Shown: piece after piece, positions 40,366 through 46,656 of the stretch
Numbering within the stretch: position 1 is the first letter of the stretch
How the letters are laid out: each line of letters opens with the position of its first letter
NCBI RefSeq assembly: GCF_024758505.1
Contig: NZ_CP077970.1
Span: 7,130,001 to 7,194,000, forward strand
DNA: 64,000 nt
Reading direction: 5' to 3'
Source: Bradyrhizobium arachidis
GTDB lineage: Bacteria > Pseudomonadota > Alphaproteobacteria > Rhizobiales > Xanthobacteraceae
Program-made: the position numbers and the translations under genes
The notes under the pieces: generated by a model
What the model was told of the DNA's origin: nothing
What the model saw: the letters and a program-made list of their open reading frames with translations, nothing else
Database searches by the model: none

Positions 40366-43300
40366 ATGAGCGACCTTGATCCCGGAACGGCTTCGCAGTC
40401 CGGTCGTCGCGCTCCCAAACGGAAAGTCAACGGCACCGACGAGCCGGATTCCCGGCAGGAGCTGCTGCTCGCGCTGCAGGCGATGCGCAGCGGCGATTTC
40501 TCGGTGCGCATGAGCGGCGAATATCTCGGCATCGACGGCAAGATCGCGGACACCCTGAACGAGATCATCGCCGCCAACCAGCGCATGGCGCAGCAGCTCG
40601 AGCTGGTCGGCGAGGTCGTCGGCCGCGAGGGCCGGACCAAGCAGCGCGTGAGGTTCGGCCTTGCCTCCGGCTCCTGGGCCGACATGGAAGGCTCCGTCAA
40701 CACGCTGATCGACGACCTTTTGTGGCCGACGCGCGAGGTGACGCGCGCAGTTGCGGCCGTGGCACAAGGCGACCTGCTGCAAACCGTCAAGCTCGACGTC
40801 GATGGCCGCCCCCTGCGCGGCGAATTCTTGCAGTCGGCGACGATCGTCAACACCATGATCAAGCAGCTCGGCGTGTTCACTTCCGAGGTGACGCGCGTCG
40901 CGCGCGAGGTCGGCACCGAAGGCAAGCTCGGCGGCCAGGCCCAGGTGCCTGAAGTCACCGGCGTGTGGAAGGATTTGACCGAGAGCGTCAACTCGATGGC
41001 GAACAACCTGACCAACCAGGTTCGCAACATCGCAGAGGTAACGATCGCAGTCGCCAACGGCGACCTCTCCAAGAAGATCACTGTCGACGTCCGCGGCGAG
41101 ATTTTGCAGCTCAAGGAAGCCATCAACACGATGGTGGACCAGCTCCGCTCCTTCGCTTCCGAAGTGACGCGCGTCGCGCGCGAGGTCGGCACCGACGGCA
41201 AGCTGGGCGGACAAGCGATCGTGCCTGGCGTCGCCGGCACCTGGAAGGACCTCACCGACTCCGTCAACGCGATGTGCGGCAATCTGACTGCACAGGTGCG
41301 CAACATCGCCAATGTGACGACCGCGGTTGCCCGCGGCGACCTCTCGCGCAAGATTACCGTCGATGTGCGCGGCGAAATTCTGGAGTTGAAGGACACCATC
41401 AACACCATGGTGGACCAGCTCAACTCCTTCGCGTCGGAAGTGACGCGCGTCGCGCGCGAAGTCGGCACCGAAGGCAAGCTCGGCGGCCAGGCGCAGGTGC
41501 CCGGCGTCGCCGGCACCTGGAAGGACCTCACCGACAACGTCAACTTCATGGCGTCGAACCTCACCGCCCAGGTCCGCAACATCGCCGACGTCGCCACCGC
41601 GATCGCGAGCGGCGACCTCTCCAAGAAGATCACGGTGAACGTCTCGGGCGAGATCCTTCAGTTGAAGGAAACGCTCAACACCATGGTCGACCAGCTCAAT
41701 GCGTTCGCCGGCGAAGTCACGCGCGTCGCGCGCGAGGTCGGCACCGACGGCCGGCTCGGCGGCCAGGCCAATGTGCTCGGCGTCGCCGGCACCTGGAAGG
41801 ACCTCACCGAAAGCGTCAACTCGATGGCGTCGAACCTGACTGCGCAGGTTCGCAACATCGCCGAGGTGACGACGGCGGTCGCGGGCGGCGACTTGTCGAA
41901 GAAGATCACCGTGGACGTGCGCGGTGAAATCCTGGAGCTGAAGGACACCATCAACACCATGGTGGACCAGCTCAACGCCTTCGCCGGCGAAGTGACGCGC
42001 GTCGCGCGCGAGGTCGGCACCGAAGGCAAGCTCGGCGGACAAGCGGTCGTGCGCGGCGTCGGCGGCACGTGGAAGGACCTCACCGACAGCGTCAACTCGA
42101 TGGCGTCGAACCTCACCGGCCAAGTCCGCAACATCGCCGAAGTCGCAACAGCCGTCGCCAAGGGCGACCTGTCGAAGAAGATCACCGTCAACGTGTCGGG
42201 CGAAATCCTTCAGTTGAAGGAAACGCTCAACACCATGGTGGACCAGCTCAACGCGTTCGCCGGCGAAGTGACGCGCGTCGCACGCGAGGTTGGCACCGAC
42301 GGCAAGCTCGGCGGCCAGGCCGACGTGCCCGGCGTCGCCGGCACCTGGAAGGATCTCACCGATAGCGTCAACTCGATGGCAGGCAACCTCACCGCCCAGG
42401 TCCGCAATATCGCCGAGGTCGCGACCGCGATCGCCGGCGGCGACCTGTCGCGCAAGATCACGGTGGACGTGCGCGGCGAGATCCTTCAGCTCAAGGACAC
42501 GCTGAACACCATGGTCGACCAGCTCAACCGCTTCGCGGGTGAGGTCACGCGCGTGGCGCGCGAGGTCGGCACCGAAGGGCGCCTCGGCGGCCAGGCCAAC
42601 GTGCCCGGTGTGGCCGGCACCTGGAAAGACCTTACCGACAGCGTCAACTCGATGGCGGGCAACCTCACCGCGCAGGTTCGCAATATCGCCGAGGTGACGA
42701 CGGCCGTGGCGCGGGGCGACTTGTCGCGCAAGATTACCGTGGACGTGAAGGGCGAAATCCTCGAGCTGAAGAACACCATCAACACCATGGTGGACCAGCT
42801 CAACGCCTTCGCCTCCGAAGTCACGCGCGTCGCGCGCGAAGTCGGCACCGAAGGCAAGCTCGGCGGTCAGGCCGAAGTGCCCGAAGTGGCCGGCACCTGG
42901 AAGGACCTCACCGACAACGTCAACTTCATGGCGTCGAACCTGACGGCGCAGGTCCGCAACATCGCCGAGGTCGCAACCGCGATCGCTGGCGGCGACCTCT
43001 CCAAGAAGATCACGGTGGACGTGCGCGGCGAAATTTTGCTGCTCAAGGACACCCTGAACACGATGGTCGAGCAGCTCCGCTCCTTTGCCGCCGAAGTGAC
43101 GCGCGTGGCACGCGAGGTCGGCACCGAAGGCCGGCTCGGCGGTCAGGCCGTGGTGCCCGGCGTCGGCGGCACCTGGAAGGACCTCACCGACAACGTCAAC
43201 CTCCTGGCCGCGAACCTCACCACGCAGGTCCGCAACATCGCCGAAGTCACCACCGCCGTGGCGCGCGGCGATCTGTCCCGCAAGATCACGGTGGACGTGA

Positions 43301-46300: not shown

Positions 46301-46656
46301 TGCTCGTCGACGACGACGCCCGCAACATCTTCGCGCTGTCGAGCGTGCTGGAACGCCGCGGCATGAAGGTGCTGACGGCGACGACAGGCAGCGAAGCGGT
46401 GACGCTCGTCGAATCCAATCCGGAAATCGCGATCGTGCTCATGGACATCATGATGCCGCAGATGGACGGCTATCAGACCATCGGCGTCATCCGGCAGGAC
46501 CCGGCCTTCGCCCGTCTGCCGATCATCGCGCTGACCGCAAAGGCGATGAAGGGTGACCGCGAGAAGTGCCTGGAGGCCGGCGCGTCCGACTATCTCGCCA
46601 AACCCGTCAATACCGATCAATTGCTGCTTGCCATCCGCATGTGGCTGCATCGCTGA
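40366..46656 (+). CDS. Soluble poly-HAMP hybrid histidine kinase with GAF and three receiver domains
   Basis: A 2096-residue hybrid kinase. Order: a HAMP-like N-terminal part (1-174), eleven tandem 92-residue HAMP units (175-1186), GAF (about 1206-1355), coiled coil (about 1355-1425), HisKA with His1432 in [12 protein letters not shown], HATPase (about 1535-1665; [33 protein letters not shown]), and receivers with phospho-acceptors Asp1758, Asp1880 and Asp2027. No transmembrane segment or signal peptide is visible, so it is cytoplasmic. The layout parallels fungal group III (Nik1/Os-1) osmosensors, which also stack about 90-residue HAMP units. The ATG follows GGGGGAATGAG. A receiver-HWE kinase gene starts 16 bp downstream. 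Confidence 0.95.
40888..43923 (+). repeat. Eleven coding tandem repeats of exactly 276 bp (HAMP units)
   Basis: The first unit starts at 40888 and the eleventh at 43648, ten intervals of exactly 276 bp with no indel. Each encodes 92 residues beginning [18 protein letters not shown] and containing [33 protein letters not shown] and [13 protein letters not shown]. Units 2-9 are nearly identical at DNA level; units 1, 10 and 11 are more diverged. The pattern indicates duplication with continuing homogenisation. Confidence 0.95.

Follow-up and report, generated by a model that had tools for sequence, protein, structure and literature searches.

We analysed a window of 64,000 nucleotides from the genome of Bradyrhizobium arachidis (contig NZ_CP077970.1, positions 7,130,001 to 7,194,000; all coordinates below are those of the window). 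It contains an open reading frame (ORF) of 2096 amino acids (aa) encoding a hybrid histidine kinase with a long array of HAMP domains (a poly-HAMP kinase) and, immediately downstream, the gene of a second, receiver-bearing kinase, hereafter called its partner. The two genes comprise the following features, all on the forward strand:

40366..46656, + strand: poly-HAMP hybrid histidine kinase gene, an open ORF of 2096 aa with no predicted membrane helix
40450..40887, + strand: N-terminal region before the array (aa 29-174), made of diverged HAMP-like segments, with HAMP_2 at aa 101-147
40888..43923, + strand: array of eleven units (92 aa, 276 bp each), the last two of them (10 and 11) being distinct kinase-proximal caps
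43987..44397, + strand: GAF domain (aa 1208-1344; Pfam), fold model with a mean predicted local distance difference test (pLDDT) of 87
44398..44613, + strand: signalling helix (coiled coil, aa 1345-1416), mean identity in the genus 98.1%
44632..44835, + strand: HisKA (aa 1423-1490; Pfam), with the phospho-acceptor His1432 in the motif SHELRTP
44977..45348, + strand: HATPase_c (aa 1538-1661; Pfam), N, G1, F and G2 boxes conserved
45478..45810 (approximate boundaries), + strand: receiver 1 (Pfam), Asp and Lys present
45853..46200 (approximate boundaries), + strand: receiver 2 (Pfam), Asp and Lys present
46300..46635, + strand: receiver 3 (Pfam), Asp and Lys present
46673..48160, + strand: partner gene, a REC-PAS-HWE histidine kinase, whose ATG lies 16 bp past the kinase stop; HRAKN motif

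Pfam searches with the complete protein detected HAMP in 11 stretches, one per unit (PF00672, 381.5 bits over the 11 stretches, for a curated cut-off of 25), together with GAF, HisKA, HATPase_c and three Response_reg domains. The SHELRTP motif carrying His1432 was identical in 77/77 orthologues from the genus. Hydropathy gave no sign of a membrane helix, since the highest 19-residue Kyte-Doolittle mean over the whole protein was only 1.45. The kinase has the layout of bacterial poly-HAMP hybrid kinases, being soluble and combining a long HAMP array, a HisKA-HATPase core and receivers. Tandem Repeats Finder reported a single array (40883-43785, period 276, score 3217), and a direct-repeat search found 11 copies with ten spacings, all of exactly 276. 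These results agreed with a first-pass annotation, made from the sequence alone, which had described a soluble poly-HAMP hybrid kinase without membrane helix, with eleven 92-aa HAMP units at ten exact 276-bp intervals without indel, and with a GAF domain and three receivers as differences from fungal group III kinases.

The array extends from residue 175 (40888) to residue 1186 (43923). Units 1-9 are mutually 77-91% identical at the protein level, and units 10 and 11 share 60-68% identity with the others. Each 92-aa unit probably consists of two HAMP domains, the first of them divergent, although this is not proven. When unit 5, the one unit tested by halves, was submitted to Pfam, its second half was recognized as HAMP (45.7 bits) and its first half returned no match. 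HAMP_2 was discarded as a marker of the first half, as its best stretch covers unit offsets 24-87 and overlaps HAMP. The case for two HAMP domains comes from the 92-aa HAMP pairs of the fungal kinase CaNik1p, which has nine HAMP domains (PMC3848655), and from model helix spacing, an alignment of half-unit profiles and profile matches to known structures. In an AlphaFold model of aa 32-311, a weak one (mean pLDDT 62), helices start at residues 121, 170, 214 and 262, i.e., 44-49 residues apart. The alignment of first-half and second-half profiles with hhalign, the former built from 211/587 distinct units, covered 34 columns in the expected register with a score of 15.3, compared with at most 11.2 in 30 shuffled comparisons, although with a probability of only 2.7%. 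A profile of the N-terminal region matched PDB 9trk (E 6e-152) and, weakly, Aer2 (E 3e-4), and the Aer2 poly-HAMP structure also ranked first in a Foldseek search with the weak N-terminal model, with an E value of only 0.25. PDB 9trk (‘histidine kinase,Gcn4p’) matches residues 16-306 of the kinase at E 4.5e-113, so that the N-terminal region and the first units are already solved in a homologue; 9trj and 9trk correspond only to fusion fragments of that homologue, for which the closest genome found was that of Myxococcus qinghaiensis (93%).

The poly-HAMP kinase is nearly universal in the genus (184/195 genomes), and we fetched 80 loci from the 183 other Bradyrhizobium genomes with a match. By at least one of two motifs, 78 of these 80 loci have eleven units; the exceptions are one locus with nine (L083, from G063) and another in which runs of N mask the array (L056). 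In 72 genes that were strictly regular by one motif (5112 ordered pairs), the unit at the same position was the best nucleotide match in 83.6-100% of cases, the lowest value being that of unit 7, which was confused with units 9 and 4. Protein identity between units at the same position averages 96.5-100%, and that between different units of one gene 77%. Units of one gene never share more than 95% nucleotide identity, and in 3509/56232 comparisons a unit proved more similar to another unit of its own gene than to its positional counterpart in a different gene. The fixed unit number and identity by position imply that the duplications predate the genus and that conversion between units has been slight at most. 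Judged from these sequences, the unit duplications are old, older than the genus, and the refuting condition named in the first-pass annotation speaks against ongoing duplication: orthologues (78/80) keep eleven units, which cluster by position.

The array is also among the most conserved parts of the protein. Across 77 orthologues, mean pairwise identity is 96.3-99.8% for the units, 98.1% for the signalling helix, 97.4% for HisKA and 95.2% for the N-terminal pair, compared with 89.2-95.1% for the receivers, 91.2% for HATPase and 82.9% for GAF, the lowest of all Pfam domains; the array thus stands level with the helix and HisKA and above GAF, HATPase and the receivers. Such variability of GAF would suit a ligand-binding domain, and the model of this domain shows a clear GAF fold. 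This bears on an explanation that we find credible without favouring it, namely that the main task of the kinase is to sense a ligand or an electrophile: GAF or an array cysteine would detect a metabolite, and the array would only transmit or scaffold. The sole cysteine of the HAMP region, C304 (41275-41277), is invariant in 77/77 genus orthologues, and in Drk1 the HAMP-located C392 is needed for full fludioxonil sensitivity, thought to act via methylglyoxal (PMC6433957). However, nearly all the surroundings of C304 are invariant in the genus too, so that its conservation is not special, and both the family consensus and the 14 other sequences in alignment A1 have Ala at this position. Likewise, the Foldseek matches of the GAF model (cAMP-binding, PtsP and methionine-sulfoxide reductase GAFs) indicate no ligand.

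Beyond the genus, a protein search with aa 1095-1430 retrieved at least 8000 homologues, all scored candidates passing, the nearest being 95-96% identical over the query region. Among the best 120 of these, 119 proteins (P0002-P0120) have 11-17 units, in a list that favours long arrays and includes some partial proteins, and their interval is 92 throughout except for a single 184, which corresponds to a missed motif. A scan of named genomes with the 9trk query found at least 583 relatives, of which 80 were kept; the matches listed include Myxococcus, Polyangium, Acidobacteria, Cyanobacteria, Bacteroidetes, Planctomycetota, Verrucomicrobia, Elusimicrobia and alpha-, beta- and gammaproteobacteria. 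In these named genomes, 585/586 motif intervals are 92 and the remaining one is 184. An interval of 93 residues occurs once, in locus L221. The distribution is patchy at the class level (15/289 genomes at E 1e-60, source genome included), and the order-wide search detected 27/297 genomes at E 1e-90, nine of these 27 belonging to the same genus. The Bradyrhizobium protein is a member of an already known kind of bacterial poly-HAMP kinases, neither unique nor hypervariable.

The kinase-proximal units and the interior of the array behave differently across this family. Unit 11 best matches the last unit in 63/63 named arrays and unit 10 the penultimate one in 55/63, and 13 further arrays gave the same result (13 and 12, respectively), whereas interior units show no such positional order across phyla in the 63 named arrays. 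Twenty relatives from the order and class carry 8-11 units, and in the eight 11-unit arrays among them the order of positions is preserved in part or for the most part. This may be pictured as a rod with fixed kinase-proximal caps and lineage-specific interior copies. Could the array nevertheless be an unstable, expanding tandem repeat, with a length varying between strains? Copy number does differ between lineages (2-14 in 62 complete named loci and up to 17 in the best 120 of the at least 8000 proteins), and rare variants occur in the genus or near it: in addition to the nine units of L083, there are 14 in the B. yuanmingense protein P0003 and 12 in P0009. We regard this explanation as extremely improbable given the eleven units in nearly all genus loci, the unit identities within genes and the best matches by position given above; at the species level, the comparison being between species, expansion is already contradicted in the genus.

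The first-pass annotation had also noticed an alternation of unit subtypes along the array and suggested alternating HAMP conformations. The alternation itself is significant here (units 2-9, permutation p = 0.0076, a value computed after the pattern had been noticed), but similarity at lag 2 exceeds that at lag 1 in only 22/51 arrays tested, the present one included. A two-unit super-repeat can thus be ruled out as a family rule, and the alternation looks like lineage history rather than a general conformational code.

A likeness to the fungal group III osmosensors Nik1/Os-1 had been proposed as well, and it stands in part. Compared by description, these fungal kinases and CaNik1p share with the Bradyrhizobium protein HAMP repeats of ~90 aa in a soluble hybrid kinase (pairs of 92 aa in CaNik1p), but the fungal proteins are neither the nearest nor the only relatives, the bacterial family being nearer. 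In fungal group III kinases, the array is joined directly to HisKA and followed by one receiver feeding a high-osmolarity glycerol (HOG) relay. The Bradyrhizobium kinase differs in its GAF domain between array and HisKA, its three receivers and its bacterial genome. The consulted text on CaNik1p gives the HOG pathway as its output, mentions no GAF domain or partner kinase, and reports that deleting all its HAMP domains activates Hog1 in yeast (PMC3848655). Group III kinases have been called fungal-specific (PMC11253588), a label with which the thousands of poly-HAMP kinases of this layout in prokaryotes and metagenomes contrast.

The partner gene, which the first-pass annotation had overlooked, lies downstream of the kinase in 80/80 genus loci, at ~6-29 bp from the kinase stop in 79 of them; the exception is L085, with a short kinase frame and a partner distance of 1321. 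Its HWE domain (PF07536, 80.3 bits) carries HRAKN in 80/80 loci, and an HRxxN motif has been described for Paks (PMC5898713). With this domain and motif, the partner fits the PhyR-activating HWE/HisKA_2 kinases by sequence. Outside the genus, 32 genomes matched in the order- and class-wide searches; we retrieved 20 of them, and the partner receiver lies downstream in 20/20 of these alphaproteobacterial relatives (its match begins at 14-77 bp in all but one, where it begins at 916). For the comparison across phyla, 62 of the 80 named loci were eligible (kinase frame no shorter than 1200 aa, followed by 1 kb of sequence), and a partner was called when an ORF within 1300 bp encoded a receiver that, of four receiver queries, resembled the window partner most. 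A partner-type receiver was present in 40/62 loci, 37 of them within 250 bp, and three of the 62 carry another receiver. In reciprocal searches, the partner receivers of Myxococcus (121.7 vs 64.9 bits) and Flavobacterium (108 vs 71.7 bits) both retrieved the window partner as best match in this genome. Twelve loci from the G769 phylum group were considered outside the 40/62 count; the partner proteins of this group look cyanobacterial, and we draw no actinobacterial conclusion from it. A partner-type receiver follows on the same strand in six of the twelve, at a distance of 1.7-1.8 kb or 0.5 kb in three cases; a seventh locus has such a hit at 2.7 kb, and nothing of the kind lies downstream in the other five. 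The outputs attached to the receiver differ: Pfam identified three HWE and seven HisKA domains in ten alphaproteobacterial partners, and eight HisKA and no HWE in ten partners from other named loci.

A CheR gene lies directly downstream of the poly-HAMP gene in 13/62 eligible cross-phylum loci (L125, L126, L142, L151, L158, L164, L166, L167, L169, L173, L174, L175 and L186), three of which also have CheB. Its product may methylate the signalling helix, which is conserved across the cross-phylum loci, and activity could then be set by this methylation with the HAMP array as input, as in the Bacillus cereus RsbK-RsbM pair, where RsbM is presumably CheR-like. RsbK, with the order CHASE3-HAMP-GAF-S-helix-HK-CA-REC, is methylated by RsbM on its S-helix (PMC4574943). 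It shares with the Bradyrhizobium kinase the succession HAMP, GAF, signalling helix, kinase and receiver, but has CHASE3 in front, a HAMP named only once with no array described in the text consulted, and a methyltransferase as partner. Such an adjacent methyltransferase is absent here: 0/80 genus loci have a CheR or CheB homologue within ~5 kb (the rest of the genome was not searched), and we consider this mode of control improbable in Bradyrhizobium.

Two characterized systems come closer to the pair of genes. In Myxococcus xanthus, AskA and AskB are poly-HAMP kinases and AskC, a kinase with a receiver, is encoded directly after askB; AskB binds AskC in vitro, and two-hybrid assays link Rec3 of AskA with the AskC receiver (PMC7643160). 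The Bradyrhizobium locus resembles AskA/AskB-AskC in its soluble poly-HAMP hybrid kinase followed immediately by a second, receiver-bearing kinase. The role reported for AskA/AskB concerns the effects of ambruticin and glycerol on development (PMC7643160). In M. qinghaiensis, locus L232 encodes 14 units followed by a REC-PAS-HisKA gene, and we take it as askB-askC-like by analogy with the published layout rather than with M. xanthus sequences; its partner output is HisKA instead of HWE, and the two kinases of this species have 14 and 9 units, compared with 11 in Bradyrhizobium. In Streptomyces coelicolor, OsaA has more than 10 HAMP domains and the neighbouring OsaB is needed for osmoadaptation, in a cascade called unclear (PMC9739842, PMC10117811). 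By published description, OsaA/OsaB resembles the Bradyrhizobium pair in its large soluble hybrid kinase with >10 HAMPs and in its adjacent receiver protein, and it ties this kind of kinase to osmotic stress; unlike in Bradyrhizobium, the output of OsaB is a coiled coil and not a kinase, and OsaA is described with a REC domain instead of three.

In our view, it is likely that the two Bradyrhizobium genes (40366-46656 and 46673-48160) form a soluble two-kinase phosphorelay module. The anatomy of the proteins, the conserved catalytic and receiver residues, the conserved gene pairing and the position-specific conservation are directly supported, while phosphotransfer to the partner and an HWE stress output are inferred from the order of the genes, the type of the domains and the interaction between the AskA and AskC receivers. 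The kinase would most likely be dimeric, its array forming a rod of stacked HAMP pairs that would keep GAF, the signalling helix and HisKA in either a kinase or a phosphatase state. The helix phase, and with it the autophosphorylation of His1432, might change in response to a cytosolic cue, whether a change in osmotic conditions or crowding that affects the rod or a small molecule binding at GAF. Phosphoryl groups might then pass to the kinase’s own three receivers and to the partner receiver, which would set the activity of the partner output domain, here an HWE kinase probably feeding the alphaproteobacterial stress network. The exact 92-residue spacing, together with the invariance seen along the array, agrees with a rod of continuous helices whose phase carries the signal; an interval of 92 in 585/586 cases is what a phase-locked coiled coil would require.

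Several observations weigh against such a module. The partner receiver carries Val at 46997-46999 (DYVPVP) where receivers usually have Lys, which makes normal phospho-switching doubtful. This Lys-less motif is found in 80/80 genus partners, a fixation that slightly lowers our confidence in the two-kinase module, and Val also replaces Lys in 13 of the 17 alphaproteobacterial partners that could be parsed among the 20 (L212-L221 and L228-L230), while L222-L225 retain Lys. Across phyla, a partner receiver ORF is missing from the first 1300 bp in 19/62 eligible loci, although L126 and L142 have one further away, and eleven of these 19 have CheR directly downstream instead. Ambruticin is reportedly bound by AskC and not by AskA/AskB (PMC7643160), so that the cue may enter via the partner rather than the array, and deletion of osaA had only a minor phenotype compared with that of osaB (PMC9739842, PMC10117811). 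The model of the N-terminal region is weak not only by its pLDDT but also by its predicted template modelling score (0.44), and literature searches turned up no experiment on the Bradyrhizobium protein.

A broader and more speculative extension of the two-kinase module, which as a whole we think rather unlikely to hold, would see poly-HAMP kinases across bacteria as one ancient two-gene module whose partner output has been swapped between HisKA, HWE and the coiled coil described for OsaB. The sensor rod, the two cap units and the partner receiver would be the retained parts, and in Bradyrhizobium the swap to a Lys-less HRxxN HWE partner would plug an osmosensor-like rod into the PhyR general stress response. 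What deserves attention in this system is the widespread pairing together with the HWE partner: the pairing offers a handle on the output of poly-HAMP kinases, and an almost frozen array in a genus with good genetics makes testable what a poly-HAMP rod senses. Neither the cross-phylum pairing nor the Bradyrhizobium gene was reported in the literature surveyed, which consisted of titles and the beginnings of abstracts, with subscription papers mostly outside it.

Pfam also lists SpoIIID, HTH_6, DUF1759 and others for the kinase, which we rejected as helix-turn-helix domains. None of their stretches passes individually, so that the SpoIIID/HTH_6 calls look like sub-threshold matches summed over the repeats. 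In AskA/AskB, partial SpoIIID/HTH domains overlapping HAMP domains have been discussed as possibly DNA-binding (PMC7643160); such calls may likewise be repeat artefacts.

Finally, the opposite strand of the poly-HAMP gene is open over a long distance:

40285..45294, - strand: antisense ORF of 1669 aa opposite the poly-HAMP gene, in the codon-aligned frame

We do not take this ORF as a gene. The frame is codon-aligned with that of the kinase, in which TTA, CTA and TCA codons are nearly absent (four in all). Nor is the length of the ORF conserved, the antisense stop-free run varying from 473 to 2088 codons in the 80 genus loci. Nevertheless, 98.7% of synonymous shuffles give a shorter ORF (p = 0.013), an argument against pure chance. 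Locus L125 has an antisense ORF of 1953 aa (9935-15796, - strand) opposite its own poly-HAMP gene.

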